Shown piece by piece: positions 7,255 through 12,933 of a stretch of DNA of 64,000 nucleotides. The stretch lies in assembly GCA_001874265.1 (NCBI GenBank), contig MPDD01000003.1:1-64000 (forward strand), given 5' to 3'. The notes beneath the pieces are model-generated. The model had not been told where the DNA came from, searched no databases, and saw only the letters and a list, made by a program, of their open reading frames with translations. Position 1 is the first letter of the stretch, and each line of letters starts with the position of its first letter. A program made the position numbers and the translations under genes. Source of the stretch: Bacteroidetes bacterium MedPE-SWsnd-G1. Its GTDB lineage: Bacteria > Bacteroidota > Bacteroidia > Flavobacteriales > Flavobacteriaceae.

Positions 7255-8340
7255 TTATATATCAAACGCTTCCGAAATTTCGCTATAGATTATTTCTCCG
7301 TTTACAATGTTTACACCTTTATTCAATCCACTATTTTCTTTACAGGCCTTTTCCCAACCTTTATCTGCTAATTGTAATACATAAGGTAGTGTAACATTTG
7401 TTAATGCAATTGTTGAAGTATAAGGAACAGCACCGGGCATATTTGCAACACAATAATGCAAAACCTTATCGATTATATAAGTTGGGTTTTCATGTGTTGT
7501 AGGTTTTGTAGTTTCTATACATCCTCCTTGATCTACAGCCACGTCAACTAAAACGGTTCCCGGCTGCATTTCTTTTAGCATATCGCGTTTAATTAAGTTT
7601 GGTGCCTTTGCTCCTGGAATCAAAACGCCTCCTATAATTAAATCCGCAGTTTTAATGTGCTCTCTAATATTATACTCATTAGAAAACTCGGTAACTACAT
7701 TGCTAGGCAAAACATCGTTTAAATACCTTAAGCGATCTACATTTATATCTAAAATGGTTACAGACGCACCAAGACCAGATGCCATTTTTGCTGCTTGGGT
7801 TCCAACAACTCCTCCTCCTAATATTACAATTTTACCTGGACGTACTCCAGGAACACCGCCTAACAGAATACCTTTTCCCTGCACAGGCTTTTCTAGATAC
7901 TTCGCTCCTTGTTGTACCGCCATCCTTCCAGCTACTTCAGACATAGGAGTTAATAAAGGCAATGAATTGTTTGGGCCTTCAACAGTTTCATAGGCTATAC
8001 AAACAGATTTACTCTTTATCATTGCTTCAGTTAATTTTTGACTCGATGCAAAATGAAAATATGTAAATAAAATTTGACCTTCTTTTGCCAATTTATACTC
8101 TTCTTCAATAGGTTCTTTTACCTTAACTATCATATCCGATATGGCATACACTTCAGAAATTGTTGGTAATATAATTGCTCCGGCTTCTAAATAATCTTGA
8201 TTTGTAAACCCACTATTTAATCCAGCACTTTCTTGAACGTAAACTGTATGGTTTCTTTTAGTTAATTCATAGACTCCGCCTGGTGTTAGCGCGACTCTAT
8301 TCTCGTTGTTTTTTATTTCTTTGGGAAGTCCTATTATCAT
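7255..8340 (-). CDS. ald: Alanine dehydrogenase
   Basis: Catalyses NAD-dependent oxidative deamination of L-alanine to pyruvate and ammonia. From the ATG at 8340 the 361-residue protein begins MIIGLPKEIKNNE, the conserved family start. This puts the catalytic residues at exactly the usual numbers, Lys75 (KVKEP) and His96. The Rossmann motif GGGVVG is at 175-180, with the NAD-binding acidic residue Asp198. A TTG at 8376 would add 12 residues with no family support and is rejected. Its upstream region carries a 17-bp inverted repeat, suggesting tight control. It ends against the nos operon terminator. Confidence 0.95.
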   Translation of the reverse strand: MIIGLPKEIKNNENRVALTPGGVYELTKRNHTVYVQESAGLNSGFTNQDYLEAGAIILPTISEVYAISDMIVKVKEPIEEEYKLAKEGQILFTYFHFASSQKLTEAMIKSKSVCIAYETVEGPNNSLPLLTPMSEVAGRMAVQQGAKYLEKPVQGKGILLGGVPGVRPGKIVILGGGVVGTQAAKMASGLGASVTILDINVDRLRYLNDVLPSNVVTEFSNEYNIREHIKTADLIIGGVLIPGAKAPNLIKRDMLKEMQPGTVLVDVAVDQGGCIETTKPTTHENPTYIIDKVLHYCVANMPGAVPYTSTIALTNVTLPYVLQLADKGWEKACKENSGLNKGVNIVNGEIIYSEISEAFDI

Positions 8341-8355
8341 AAAAGTACTATTTTT

Positions 8356-8408
8356 AATGCATTTTAATGCTAACAAAGATGGGAAGAGTTATAGCATTAA
8401 AATGCATT
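8356..8408 (-). promoter_or_regulatory. Double-palindrome operator of ald
   Basis: A perfect 17-bp inverted repeat (8356-8372 with 8392-8408) has a 19-nt spacer, 16 bp upstream of the ald start. Each arm is itself nearly symmetric: GCATTTTAATGC and GCATTAAAATGC, centres 35 bp apart. A near-consensus -7 box on the minus strand (CATCTTTG, 8374-8381) sits in the spacer, so a protein bound to both sites would flank the promoter. An Lrp/AsnC-type regulator is a reasonable guess. Confidence 0.6.
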
Positions 8409-8543
8409 TGAATTAATATATTTTGATTCCATATTAACCTAAATATATACAGGTGTTTTTGCACTAAAAAAAGAGCATCATAATATAATTGATAGAACTC
8501 AATTAAAAACTTTACTGATTTTAGTAAATATACACTTCGGAAA

Positions 8544-11500
8544 TTACCCTACAATATTCACAATCTTACCAGGTACTACAATCACTTTCTTAGGTTCGCG
8601 ACCTTGTAATTGCTCTTTAGTTTTTTCGTGCGCTAGTACGGTTTTTTCAATATCGTCTTTGCTCATATCCAATGGTAATTCTAACGTAAAACGCATTTTA
8701 CCATTAAATGAAATTGGGTAATTCTTAGAACTCTCTACCAAGTGGCTTGCTTCAAAAACAGGGAATTCAGCGGTAGCAATAGAATCTTTATGACCCAATT
8801 TACTCCATAATTCTTCCGCAATATGCGGCGCATAAGGTGAGATTAAAACAATTAATCCTTCTAATATTTCACGCTTATTACATTTTAACGCCGTTAACTC
8901 ATTCACAGCAATCATAAATGAACTTACGGATGTATTGAAAGAGAAGTTCGCGATATCTTCATCAACCTTTTTAATGGTTTTATGTAGTGTTTTTAATTCG
9001 TCTTTATTTGCTTTTTCATCTGAAATGAAGAACGCACCATCGTCACCACTATGATATAATTTCCATAACTTCTTAAGGAATGAAAGAACCCCTGAAATAC
9101 CAGAAGTTTTCCAAGGTTTAGATTGCTCTAATGGCCCTAAAAACATTTCAAACAAACGCAAACTGTCCGCTCCATATTCTTCACAAATAGCATCTGGACT
9201 TACTACATTATATTTTGATTTCGACATTTTTTCAACCTCGCGACCTACTTTAAACGTTCCATTTTCTTCTGTGATGAATTCGGCATTTTTATGCTCTTCT
9301 CGCCAGTTTTTAAATGCTTCAATATCCAATTCATCTGAGGTGTTTACAAATGAAACATCTGCATGTATAGGAGCTAGTATTTCTTGATGAAATTCAATTT
9401 GAATTTCTGAACTGTTTTTCTTTTTTAAACCTTCTATTAGTATTGCTTCTGCTTTTTCAAATAATCCATCAAGGTCATATGCATTTCCTGACTTTTTATT
9501 TAGAGTGCCTATTGATATAAAGAAATCGTCTTTTAATACTAAATTGACTTTTCTTCCGTCTTCAGCTTTGTATGAAACACTATAGTCTAAAGAATACCTG
9601 TAAGCAAAAGCACTAGTTCCAGTAATCATCCCTTGGTTGATCAGTTTCTTTGCAAACTCATCAACAGGAACGATGCCTTTATCGAACAAGAATTTTTGCC
9701 AAAAACGAGCATATAATAAATGTCCGGTAGCATGTTCAGAACCTCCAATATATAAATCAACATCTTGCCAATAGTCCAAGGCTTCTTTACTAGCGAACTC
9801 TTCTGAATTTTGCGAGTCCATATACCTGTTAAAATACCAAGAACTTCCTGCCCAACCTGGCATGGTGTTTAGTTCTAAGGCAAAAACAGACTTGTTATCA
9901 ATTTTATCATTGCTAACAACTTTATTCGCTTTCGTATCCCAAGCCCAGTCTGTTGCATTTCCTAGAGGCGGTTTTCCATCTTCTGTAGGCAAGTATTTTT
10001 CAACTTCTGGTAAAGCAATAGGTAAATGCTTAGTATCTATCATTTGTGGCATTCCATCTTTGTAAAACACTGGGAAAGGTTCACCCCAATAACGTTGACG
10101 GCTAAATACAGCATCGCGCAATCGGTAGTTTATTTTACCATAACCAATTTTCTTTTTCTCTAGTTCATAGATAATAGTTTTCATGGCTTTCTTATATGGC
10201 AATCCATTTAAGAAATCTGAATTTGCAATCTTCGTTCCGTTCTTATCTTCATGAGCTGCTTCAGAAATATCGACACCCTCAAAAATGTTCGGAATATCAA
10301 TATCAAAGTGTTTAGCAAAGTCATAATCACGCTGATCGCCACAAGGAACTGCCATAACAGCACCTGTTCCATAACTAGCCAATACATAATCACCAATCCA
10401 AATTTGTACTTTTTCTCCTGTAAAAGGATGCTCTGCATACGCTCCGGTAAATACTCCAGAAATGGTTTTTACATCAGCCATACGATCGCGTTCGCTACGT
10501 TTTGCTGTTGCCTCTACATATGCAGTGACTGCTTTTTGTTGCTTTGCCGTTGTAATTTGAGACACTAACTCGTGCTCTGGTGCCAAAGTCATAAAACTCA
10601 CGCCAAAAATTGTGTCCGGTCTTGTTGTAAAGACATCGATTATTTTTGCTGCTTCTTTTTTGACTTTCTTTTTGGCAACTTTTTTAATTTCTGCAATCTT
10701 AGGGAATTGAATTCCGTTATTGATTTTAGAAAGTACTTTATCAATATTTTCAAGTATTTCTTCTTCAGTAATGTAAACTACACTATAGCCTTCTGTTGCA
10801 TAGAAATTTGCTCTAGCAATTTCATCCTCTTTACCAGAAAACTCTACAATGGTTTTTTTATTAAAACTTACAAAATCGGTAATAAAATCACCCAAGATGT
10901 ATTGCTGTCTAAATTTTACTGAACCTTTTTTCTTACGCAATACATCCCAAAGCATACTACTAGCTTTAGAGGTATTTAAACGTAAGGTCTTAATCTCTTC
11001 AATGGTTTTAAAAGAAAGGGCTCCTTTTTCGTCAGTTGAATCGTTAGGTAACACTTTAAAAGAAACCATAGCACCTTGCGAGCGCCCGATCCAATTTGTT
11101 TGAGAATCTTTAAGAGGTTGCGGCCAATCTATATGTTGTAATCCGTCTAATAAACGTTGAGAATACGCCGAAATACGCATAGACCATTGGGTCATTTTTT
11201 TACGAACGACAGCATGTCCACCACGCTCCGAAACTCCATTTACAATTTCGTCGTTTGCCAAAACCGTTCCTAATGCCGGACACCAGTTTACTTCGGTATC
11301 AGATAGAAATGTCAATCGGTATTGTAATAGAATCTCTTGTTTTTTCTTTTTTGAAAACTTCTTCCAAGCAGCTGCTGTAAATGATGCAATTTCTTCATCG
11401 CAAACCGCGTTTACTTTTTTGTTTCCTTCTGCTTCAAAAATGGCTTCTAATGTAGAAATATCTTCTGCCTTGTCCGAATCTTTATTATACCAAGAATTGA

Positions 11501-11927
11501 ACAATTGAATGAAAATCCATTGTGTCCATTTATAATATTCTGGTGAAGACGTTCTTACCTCACGTGACCAATCAAAAGAAAAACCAATACGATCTAATTG
11601 ACGACGATATGTTGCAATATTCTCCTCTGTTGTTTTTGCAGGATGTTGCCCAGTTTGAATTGCATATTGCTCTGCAGGTAAGCCAAAAGAATCGTAACCT
11701 TGTGGATGTAAAACATTAAATCCTTTATGACGCTTGTATCGTGCATAAATATCTGAGGCAATATAACCTAGTGGATGTCCAACATGCAGTCCTGCTCCAG
11801 ATGGATAAGGGAACATATCCAGTACATAATATTTTGGTTTGTCAGAATTATTAGAGGCTTTAAATGTTTGGTTCTTTGCCCAATATTGTTGCCAGTCTTT
11901 TTCTATTCTTTTGTGATCGTAACTCAT
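8544..11927 (-). CDS. leuS: Leucyl-tRNA synthetase with an inserted DUF559 domain
   Basis: Charges tRNA-Leu. All class I elements are present: HVGH (48-51), the editing-domain TTRPDT stretch (434-439), the YIGGSEHATGHLLYARFW region and KMSKS (900-904). At 1127 residues it is far longer than the usual 800-950. Three insertions explain this. Residues about 150-205 are common in Bacteroidota. Residues about 306-428 form a DUF559 nuclease-like domain plus a lysine-rich tail, placed inside the editing domain. Residues about 783-850 form an extra segment in the leucine-specific region before KMSKS. The frame is intact throughout, so the gene is presumably functional. It is preceded by its own promoter and by panE. 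Confidence 0.95.
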   Translation of the reverse strand: MSYDHKRIEKDWQQYWAKNQTFKASNNSDKPKYYVLDMFPYPSGAGLHVGHPLGYIASDIYARYKRHKGFNVLHPQGYDSFGLPAEQYAIQTGQHPAKTTEENIATYRRQLDRIGFSFDWSREVRTSSPEYYKWTQWIFIQLFNSWYNKDSDKAEDISTLEAIFEAEGNKKVNAVCDEEIASFTAAAWKKFSKKKKQEILLQYRLTFLSDTEVNWCPALGTVLANDEIVNGVSERGGHAVVRKKMTQWSMRISAYSQRLLDGLQHIDWPQPLKDSQTNWIGRSQGAMVSFKVLPNDSTDEKGALSFKTIEEIKTLRLNTSKASSMLWDVLRKKKGSVKFRQQYILGDFITDFVSFNKKTIVEFSGKEDEIARANFYATEGYSVVYITEEEILENIDKVLSKINNGIQFPKIAEIKKVAKKKVKKEAAKIIDVFTTRPDTIFGVSFMTLAPEHELVSQITTAKQQKAVTAYVEATAKRSERDRMADVKTISGVFTGAYAEHPFTGEKVQIWIGDYVLASYGTGAVMAVPCGDQRDYDFAKHFDIDIPNIFEGVDISEAAHEDKNGTKIANSDFLNGLPYKKAMKTIIYELEKKKIGYGKINYRLRDAVFSRQRYWGEPFPVFYKDGMPQMIDTKHLPIALPEVEKYLPTEDGKPPLGNATDWAWDTKANKVVSNDKIDNKSVFALELNTMPGWAGSSWYFNRYMDSQNSEEFASKEALDYWQDVDLYIGGSEHATGHLLYARFWQKFLFDKGIVPVDEFAKKLINQGMITGTSAFAYRYSLDYSVSYKAEDGRKVNLVLKDDFFISIGTLNKKSGNAYDLDGLFEKAEAILIEGLKKKNSSEIQIEFHQEILAPIHADVSFVNTSDELDIEAFKNWREEHKNAEFITEENGTFKVGREVEKMSKSKYNVVSPDAICEEYGADSLRLFEMFLGPLEQSKPWKTSGISGVLSFLKKLWKLYHSGDDGAFFISDEKANKDELKTLHKTIKKVDEDIANFSFNTSVSSFMIAVNELTALKCNKREILEGLIVLISPYAPHIAEELWSKLGHKDSIATAEFPVFEASHLVESSKNYPISFNGKMRFTLELPLDMSKDDIEKTVLAHEKTKEQLQGREPKKVIVVPGKIVNIVG
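10644..11012 (-). other. DUF559 domain coding segment inside leuS
   Basis: Codes residues about 306-428 of LeuRS. It matches the free-standing DUF559 (Vsr-like/PD-(D/E)XK fold) pattern in order: MLWDVLR, KFRQQ (339-342 region), ITDF with Asp351, IVEF with Glu362, GYSVV, and ENIDKVLSKI. In usual DUF559 proteins the glutamate strand reads ELDG followed by a histidine; here it reads EFSGKED, so part of the catalytic set is missing. A KKVAKKKVKKEAAK linker leads back into the LeuRS strand IIDVFTTRPDT. Confidence 0.75.
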
Positions 11928-11966
11928 AACTCAACTTCCTGCTTTAACAGCGTTTCTTAAAGTTGG

Positions 11967-11974
11967 CAAAGTTA
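11967..11974 (-). promoter_or_regulatory. -7 box of leuS
   Basis: The minus strand reads TAACTTTG, a full match to TAnnTTTG, about 40 bp before the leuS start. leuS can therefore be transcribed independently of panE. Confidence 0.55.
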
Positions 11975-12000
11975 CTGCTTCTGTTCGAAAGAATAAAGGA

Positions 12001-12933
12001 TTATTTTATCCCTCTAGCAACTAATTCTTGCGGTAATAAACTGTTGTAAATAAATGCATTCACCGGAGTTTCAATCCCAAATTTTTCTCCTTGTTTTACA
12101 ATATATCCATTAAAATTTTCAAGCTCAGAAGGGCGGCCTTCTAAAATATCTCTTTGTGTAGACGCTGTTGAATCGTATGGTTGATTGCTAATAAATGTCA
12201 TCATCGTTTTATCAAAATCGTTTGGTAAATCAATGTTTCGAGCTTTAGCAATGGCCAACATTTCCTTAATAATTCCTGCGAACATTTTTCTTGTATCTTT
12301 TAACTCATACATTTTACCAATGGAATAACCGGTATATCCGCCCAAGCCACTTACAGTATTAATAAAAATGAATTTTTTCCACAAATCGGATTTAATTGAA
12401 GTTGAAACTGTCGATTTAAAAAGTGCTTTTTCAAAAGCTTGTTTTATTTTTTGAACTCTCTCCGAATCAGTATGGTTTAATTCACCAAAAATCAATTCAG
12501 GTGGAAAGCCAAAATGATTTATAATTCCGGGTGCTTCAATCTTAGCATATAAACGACAAAATCCACCAAGTACATTATTGGTTCCGAGTATTTCCGTTAA
12601 ATCATCGATATGTGCAACGCCATTCTGTAAAGGAAGAATTGTGGTGTTTGGTTGAACTAAAGGTTTAATAAGTTTTCCAGCTTCTCTTACTTGCCAAGAT
12701 TTAACTCCTAGAATTATAACATCAAAGTCAGGTTTTAATTCTTTTGGATTGTCGGTTGCACAAACTTCATTAAGATGATAATCACCATCAATGCTTTTAA
12801 GTTGTAAACCTTTGTTGCGAATGGCTTTTAGGTGTTCACCGCGGGCAATAAAAGTAACCTGATGCCCACATTGTGCCATACGAGTTCCAAAATAACCTCC
12901 AACCCCGCCAGTTCCATAAACCAGTATTTTCAT
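12001..12933 (-). CDS. panE: 2-dehydropantoate 2-reductase
   Basis: NADPH-dependent reduction of ketopantoate to pantoate in coenzyme A synthesis. The 310-residue length is normal. The Rossmann motif GTGGVGGYFG starts at residue 7, and the family pattern WxKFxxxN is present with Lys187 and Asn192 as likely catalytic and substrate residues. It is divergent from mntR and upstream of leuS on the same strand. Ketopantoate reductase paralogues acting on other 2-keto acids exist, so the exact substrate is not certain. Confidence 0.85.
   Translation of the reverse strand: MKILVYGTGGVGGYFGTRMAQCGHQVTFIARGEHLKAIRNKGLQLKSIDGDYHLNEVCATDNPKELKPDFDVIILGVKSWQVREAGKLIKPLVQPNTTILPLQNGVAHIDDLTEILGTNNVLGGFCRLYAKIEAPGIINHFGFPPELIFGELNHTDSERVQKIKQAFEKALFKSTVSTSIKSDLWKKFIFINTVSGLGGYTGYSIGKMYELKDTRKMFAGIIKEMLAIAKARNIDLPNDFDKTMMTFISNQPYDSTASTQRDILEGRPSELENFNGYIVKQGEKFGIETPVNAFIYNSLLPQELVARGIK

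Follow-up and report, generated by a model that had tools for sequence, protein, structure and literature searches.

A decayed DUF559 domain within a flavobacterial leucyl-tRNA synthetase, probably a long-resident in-frame element resembling homing endonucleases

In the present study, a 64,000-nucleotide stretch of DNA from Bacteroidetes bacterium MedPE-SWsnd-G1 (family Flavobacteriaceae; assembly GCA_001874265.1, contig MPDD01000003.1, positions 1 to 64,000; hereafter the window) was analysed, and a DUF559 domain was found inside the editing domain of the leucyl-tRNA synthetase (LeuRS) encoded by leuS. With a probability of about 0.7, this insert represents a non-splicing, in-frame mobile element that resembles homing endonucleases, in a long-resident copy that has decayed and has perhaps been domesticated. 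The direct observations behind this reading concern the domain itself, its predicted fold, the loss of active-site residues, its recurrence at the same site, the filled and empty versions of its host sites, the palindromes of its relatives and the constraint on the domain. The intact-looking relatives in many genes suggest an undescribed genetic parasite that remains in the finished protein. In those parts of the open PMC literature that were available, no description was found of DUF559 in LeuRS or of in-frame DUF559 elements. Genomes and loci are cited below by numbers beginning with G and L.

Results

The leuS gene occupies positions 8544..11927 on the minus strand, as do all leuS features described below, and encodes 1127 residues. 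The gene was identified from its open reading frame (ORF) and from a match to TIGR00396 (leuS_bact equivalog), which scores the protein at 873 bits against a cut-off of 548. The sequences HVGH (residue 48, HIGH-type), TTRPDT (434), DQRDYDFA (531) and KMSKS (900), which we take to be the characteristic motifs of LeuRS, are intact. Only one LeuRS match was found in the window's assembly, which is 85% complete, and likewise one in G598, an insert-bearing genome that is 99% complete on one contig. Since the motifs are intact and a single LeuRS match is also seen in more complete insert-bearing relatives, the interrupted LeuRS is very probably the functional enzyme of the cell.

The whole inserted block covers residues ~292-428 (10644..11054) and lies in the hairpin between WIGRSQGAMVSFK and IIDVFTTRPDT; it was delimited by comparison with insert-free orthologues (e.g. 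L126, L127 and L137), and its N-side edge is approximate. The distance from WIGRS to TTRPDT is 150 residues in the window protein compared with 17-42 in 20 insert-free orthologues, 13 of which have 19. The DUF559 domain (PF04480), placed by Pfam at residues 312-405 (10713..10994), scores 55.9 bits in the window LeuRS (gathering cut-off 20.6; E 4.3e-15). In a genome-wide scan for DUF559, the window copy was recovered with E 2.5e-16, and no second match was observed in the 85% complete assembly. The significant Pfam match bears out the initial annotation, which had recognized a DUF559 domain inside the LeuRS editing domain from the letters alone, at 10644-11012; this interval is exactly residues 306-428 and ends where the editing domain resumes (IIDVFTTRPDT). 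Sequence comparison defines an N-side linker, VLPNDSTDEKGALS (11013..11054), which, by resemblance alone, appears to begin as an eroded version of the linkers that palindromes encode in relatives (VLSPTLSEGKG, ILPPTPSKGEG). The C-side linker, IQFPKIAEIKKVAKKKVKKEAAK (10644..10712), is rich in lysine and has low model confidence. The rest of the editing domain follows at residues 429-589 (10161..10643), and PF13603 covers residues 422-589 with E 8.9e-52.

The AlphaFold model of residues 300-412 (113 residues), built with an alignment of 110 DUF559 sequences, reached a pLDDT of 90.9 and a pTM of 0.84. Using VIA-align, the model was matched to the DUF559 protein NGO0050 (3hrl; Z 13.2, 92 residues, rmsd 2.1), the homing endonuclease I-Bth0305I (3r3p; Z 9.9, 86 residues, rmsd 2.5) and Vsr (1cw0; Z 8.6), consistent with the nuclease fold of the restriction/Vsr type anticipated in the initial annotation; mitoribosomal chains were also among the best matches (Z 9.3, 9.0 and 8.5). 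Foldseek alone returned 3hrl (E 3.1e-5) and 3r3p (E 3.2e-3), and a profile of 110 DUF559 domains matched 3hrl (E 2.4e-32) and 3r3p (E 6.1e-7). No extra DNA-binding domain was seen within the insert.

The remnant of the active site lies at residues 351-368 (10824..10877), where D351 (in ITDF) and E362 (in IVEF) are kept, the second acid is replaced by S364 and the histidine of DGxxH is gone; the roles of these residues are assigned by analogy. All 42 LeuRS inserts that lie outside the group to which the window copy belongs (hereafter the window group) retain the D, E and D acids, and 41 of these 42 retain the histidine. Within the window group, S, V, T or E stands in place of the second acid in 9 of 9 copies and the histidine is missing, and a tenth member, L122, has V at the second acid, Ala for Gly and no His. 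Judged from the sequence against the D...ExD...H pattern of the relatives, the catalytic motif of EDxHD-type homing endonucleases is incomplete in the window copy, and because S364 takes the place of the second acid and the histidine is lost, the domain is most likely inactive as a nuclease. Both the serine after the glutamate strand, which is S364 in IVEFS, and the possible inactivity had been pointed out in the initial annotation.

The spread of the insertion had been left open there, and the survey of LeuRS showed that the same hairpin is filled with DUF559 in 51 of the 69 sequences taken by a sequence pattern and empty in 18 (L179 and L181 were left out as duplicates of G143 and G153). The pattern missed the filled L122 and the empty L133, L137 and L145, and thus the true counts are at least 52 filled and at least 21 empty. 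The named cases include Lutibacter, Hyunsoonleella ulvae, Cellulophaga baltica, Maribacter, Dokdonia, Gillisia mitskevichiae, Leeuwenhoekiella marinoflava and Chryseobacterium. In the genus of the window (14 genomes), the site holds a decayed insert in nine, is empty in G600 and G602, bears a solo palindrome in G595 and is represented in G596 and G605 by gene fragments to which no state was assigned; the insert is also present in the LeuRS of G606, from a neighbouring genus. In G600, where the LeuRS site is empty, DUF559 inserts with intact motifs occur in the isoleucyl-tRNA synthetase (IleRS) and in RecG (L285 and L286), and the editing hairpin of the IleRS contains a palindrome-like stretch at the place where the IleRS of L219 carries DUF559. 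A LeuRS tree computed without the insert (64 of the 69 sequences, length >700, quick method) shows 12 changes between the filled and the empty state. On it, G600 (L126), which is empty, forms a pair with the filled G594 inside the decayed group (support 95, starred), which implies a clean loss or a replacement in G600.

Two further loci belong to this survey. The solo palindrome of G595 (L135) is read as LSPTLSKGKELGDR where the window holds DUF559. In addition, a LeuRS with a DUF559 insert was observed in a metagenome-assembled genome labelled Candidatus Paceibacterota (L187), outside Bacteroidota, and transfer or a binning error could account for it.

DUF559 matches were detected in 73 of 246 genomes of the order and in 222 of 395 of the phylum. 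Sixty stretches were examined, nearly all around the long-ORF matches listed, with hosts named by profile models. Besides LeuRS, the domain was found inside at least 11 host proteins, namely IleRS (at two sites), the methionyl-tRNA synthetase MetRS, MetH, RecG, a RecB-like helicase, RecJ, isobutyryl-CoA mutase IcmF, acetate-CoA ligase AcsA, chorismate synthase, PaaZ and a CoA-transferase. Three of the hosts, LeuRS, IleRS and MetRS, are mutually related, and LeuRS has a second DUF559 site besides the editing hairpin. Altogether, 125 inserts in 27 hosts or sites were labelled, counting restriction enzymes and terminal joins. Less certain are joins at the N- or C-terminus of HisF, ArgB, Gmk, HemF, HemD, PurQ, IspG, RNase HI and a formylglutamase; ORFs were read from stop to stop, and those at the N-terminus (HisF, ArgB, Gmk, HemF and RNase HI) may therefore be separate genes.

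The tree of 101 DUF559 domains (121 columns, quick method) was built from a sample enriched for long ORFs. The window copy groups with support (97, starred) within a set that comprises 42 rows, every one an in-frame join, with hosts comprising both LeuRS sites, MetH, RecG, IleRS, the RecB-like protein, IcmF, PurQ and an M23-type protein. Outside this set are 26 stand-alone, 14 restriction-modification and seven HsdR rows, together with those of chorismate synthase, HemF and HisF. The statement in the initial annotation that DUF559 is normally a stand-alone protein therefore does not hold for this branch, as none of the 26 stand-alone rows lies in the set. Moreover, when 13 intact inserts were used to scan the species genomes, at least 555 relatives were confirmed, and 76 of the best 80 of these loci lie in the ORFs of other proteins or in longer ORFs. 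Host labels change 27 times on the tree compared with a shuffled mean of 67, and thus the inserts cluster by host site.

Filled and empty alleles were also found in other hosts. G153 and G634 carry a filled RecB-like gene, and G637, whose copy shares 94% identity with that of G153 across residues 6-724, carries an empty one; RecG is filled in G064 and empty in the eight relatives compared. The ends of the element are of the CCT...AGG type and lie flush with the host, replacing ~2-5 loop residues. A preference for insertion beside unusually conserved motifs was tested and found no support, as the median fraction of windows as conserved was 0.46 (best downstream 15-residue window, 11 pairs).

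Palindromes flank many of the relatives. In the LeuRS of G196 (L077), the linkers are encoded by a palindrome, e.g. CCTATCCCCAACCCTTTCC-nnn-GGAAAGGG, the right linker being the inverted form, and the LeuRS of G212, G030 and G143 have similar linkers. Inverted pairing of the two flanks (score of at least 14) was observed in 44 of 90 copies compared with 18 of 450 mismatched pairs and 0 of 270 shuffles; the set excludes 14 duplicate loci, and with them the window copy (L001). A core palindrome pattern drawn from LeuRS inserts occurs in 18 of 246 genomes of the order, and the reversed control in two. Outside the genome's own insert, the pattern was found in 8 of the 9 genomes that carry an intact insert in LeuRS or the RecB-like gene versus 9 of 237 others (p 7e-10), and within the family in 7 of 7 versus 6 of 33 (p 9e-5); kinship is ignored in these tests, the grouping was chosen after viewing the source sequences of the pattern, and own-insert copies were excluded by hand. 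For all 17 genomes with intact in-frame inserts, the proportions were 8 of 17 versus 9 of 229 (p 1.5e-6, kinship again ignored). As a separate observation, the LeuRS ORF of L077 (1251 residues) holds several palindromes, one of which (G196:C9:76476) lies a long way beyond the editing domain on its downstream side.

The dead domain is under constraint. In the window group (10 sequences), the median dN/dS of the core was 0.165 (0.06-0.52) compared with 0.070-0.090 in three other regions. Among the ten closest pairs, five gave core values of 0.06-0.13, with 0.05-0.09 in the rest of the protein, and the five pairs including L124 gave 0.29-0.40. The constraint on the core is real, but the need to fold could by itself account for it. 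With its hairpin ends counted, the window insert is basic (+6, pI 9.4), compared with a median charge of -3 in other LeuRS inserts; within the window group the charge is +3 to +9 in 7 of 9 copies, with -1 in L123 and -2 in L124. This charge, calculated from the sequence, is compatible with RNA binding as a putative function of the window insert.

Discussion

Herein, we propose the following history for the DUF559 insert. The element would consist of a DUF559 nuclease of the Vsr/EDxHD type between two palindromic repeats, which are open in the frame used and would be translated as tethers rich in Pro, Ser, Gly and Glu. First, the element would enter the coding sequence of conserved genes at tolerant loops and would stay at both the RNA and the protein level, leaving the host enzyme with an extra domain. 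Second, the nuclease, while intact, would presumably cleave alleles that lack the element and be copied across, in the manner of homing endonucleases. Third, in the window's genus, the LeuRS copy would have lost its catalytic acid, its histidine and its palindromes, and the dead copy may persist as a tethered, folded, basic domain under purifying selection, sometimes being lost and possibly acquiring a new structural or RNA-binding role. We infer mobility, homing, the absence of splicing, the tolerance of the loops and any present function from the observations described above. Whether these elements constitute a new class of mobile element, that is, a clade of non-splicing, in-frame homing DUF559 nucleases with translated palindromic ends that invade essential genes of Bacteroidota, decay and are lost or sometimes domesticated, is a proposition to which we give even odds.

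Several results weigh against this history. The nearest neighbour lies in the same host site for 102 of 111 inserts, and recent jumps between host genes were sought and none was found, the closest inserts across host proteins being 69% identical; those at two sites within MetH are 78% identical. The clustering of the inserts by host site fits a persistence faithful to the site with rare moves to new genes. For 41 LeuRS from outside the window group, the distances of the insert track those of the LeuRS body (r 0.61, permutation p 0.001), and in no more than 50 of 820 pairs does the insert show greater similarity than the body; the nine rows of the window group give no significant correlation (r 0.41, p 0.12). 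From the correlation and the small number of such pairs, the insert is inherited largely by vertical descent or passes chiefly among close kin. The palindromes likewise leave gaps: 46 of the 90 copies have no flank pairing, nine genomes have the core pattern without in-frame inserts of this kind, and the pattern is absent in 8 of the 17 insert genomes (RecG-only, MetH and IleRS), because the palindromes of the latter differ in sequence and played no part in deriving the pattern. In the window's assembly, no exact core palindrome occurs, and a single match with one mismatch lies on another contig. Finally, Foldseek alone finds Vsr (1cw0) only at E 2.0, the model of the full-length LeuRS is poor (pTM 0.35; local confidence 69-84 at residues 311-400) and too weak to place the insert relative to the tRNA, and dS is near saturation, making the dN/dS values rough.

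The alternative that survives best is that of a domesticated functional domain, in which an old fusion of DUF559 to LeuRS is kept for tRNA or RNA binding, stability or regulation and mobility is irrelevant. The core dN/dS of the five close pairs without L124, nearly as low as that of the rest of the protein, agrees with such a function, as do the basic charge of the window insert, the correlated distances of insert and host, the mitoribosomal chains among the fold matches and the precedent of FASTKD4, an RNA-binding protein for which, in the sections seen, a Vsr-like fold is described (PMC11879112). However, purifying selection may reflect only the need to keep a folded domain harmless, the L124 pairs show weaker constraint, and the at least 11 other hosts, the palindromic flanks and the absence of the insert in G600 and G602 are left unexplained. 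A functional fusion specific to LeuRS was accordingly rejected as a full account in view of the many other hosts. Domestication as such can hold together with the mobile-element history; standing alone, it is a tentative explanation, which we consider possible and less probable than even.

A second alternative is that the palindromes, similar to repetitive extragenic palindromes (REP) or Rickettsia palindromic elements (RPE), are the mobile units and that DUF559 is a passenger or a later invader and not the driver. Palindromes without DUF559 do occur at host sites, in LeuRS (L135 and L134) and in the IleRS of G600, a site filled in L219; in several filled LeuRS, DUF559 is bordered left and right by a whole inner hairpin, as would result if it had invaded one palindrome or sat between two; and the nine genomes with the pattern but without an in-frame insert point in the same direction. 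However, the palindrome is more common in genomes with in-frame inserts, and almost every copy outside the window group retains the active-site residues, suggesting that the nuclease matters. We regard this second alternative as possible but less likely than not. Since palindromes free of DUF559 at host sites coexist with complete hairpins flanking DUF559 on both sides, the data allow the palindromes to be either the ends of the element or its target.

An unrecognized intein or intron, by which the insert would be removed from the protein or the RNA through splicing, is quite improbable. The position of a nuclease in frame within conserved genes is reminiscent of inteins, and the inverted ends could pair in RNA. 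However, no match to Rfam at the gathering score was obtained in eight filled loci, and the leuS region of the window (8300-12100) gave one unrelated sub-threshold match and no intron, on which grounds an intron around the insert was rejected. Similarly, none of the five Pfam families in the window LeuRS is intein-related, no intein family was among the Pfam matches of 18 other host proteins, and an intein was rejected as no splicing domain was found in these proteins. In addition, the junction residues differ between copies, and the window group keeps the frame though its palindromes are lost. Chance, assembly error or a pseudogene, for which only the 85% completeness of the assembly speaks, has a negligible probability and was rejected given the E value of 4.3e-15, the 113-residue model with a pLDDT of 91 and the recurrence of the insert in eight further genomes of the genus and in G606, including the one-contig G598 with its single LeuRS match.

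The proposed in-frame DUF559 element has parallels among known systems. With DUF559/Vsr-like nucleases such as NGO0050 (3hrl), the window insert shares the sequence family and the fold, whereas the window copy lacks the active-site residues and lies inside an aminoacyl-tRNA synthetase. With the EDxHD homing endonuclease I-Bth0305I it shares the fold and the profile match; that enzyme is reviewed, in the part available, among intron-type homing endonucleases with an extended DNA-binding region (PMC3943268), whereas the window insert has no intron match and no such extra domain was seen. The empty, filled and decayed states at the same DUF559 site resemble the homing cycle of intein and intron endonucleases, as outlined in the accessible text of PMC3229294. 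Inteins with nested homing endonucleases also place a nuclease in frame within conserved essential proteins; in contrast, no splicing domain was found here, and DUF559 apparently remains part of the protein. Rickettsia palindromic elements are palindromes in frame within unrelated genes (PMC10969869 and PMC3733652, seen in part), and RPE, REP and miniature inverted-repeat transposable elements are in this respect similar to the palindromes around many DUF559 relatives, though not around the window copy. Unlike the DUF559 element, no nuclease domain is mentioned for RPE in the portions of these two papers that were available, and CGTC repeats are reported there without a dedicated transposase (PMC3733652). 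FASTKD4 and RAP-type domains, FASTKD4 being a mammalian mitochondrial protein, serve as a precedent for exaptation only, as far as the available text of PMC11879112 goes. With parallels known for its features, the in-frame DUF559 element has a reasonable chance of forming a separate class.

Homing endonucleases are generally held to be harmless because they are located in introns, in inteins or between genes. If the history proposed here is true, an in-frame nuclease that stays in the protein represents another route to harmlessness, through loops that tolerate a tethered domain, and DUF559 becomes a testable candidate driver for coding palindromes. With empty, intact and dead versions in sister species, the tolerance of essential enzymes for parasitic domains, and the later adoption of such domains, could further be followed as a natural experiment, and the over-long LeuRS, IleRS, MetH and RecG of the phylum would be explained.

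Several minor observations were also made. DUF559 occurs in type I HsdR and HsdM and in Eco57I/ISP-type restriction proteins (L002, L039, L041, L046, L079, L081 and L095), and these copies may be functional fusions or reflect the same insertion habit. Many genomes contain a short ORF of ~115-175 residues with a weak match to the last ~third of DUF559 (e.g. G109:C1:1494926, G133:C16:217491 and G231:C1:3440356), possibly a separate small protein family. Within the window LeuRS, a second block at 9372-9605 (residues ~775-852) was considered as a possible related insertion and gave no DUF559 match; it is hypervariable in length and sequence among relatives, and residues 780-848, where the alignment is poor, have a median dN/dS of ~0.87 in the window group compared with 0.07-0.09 around them.

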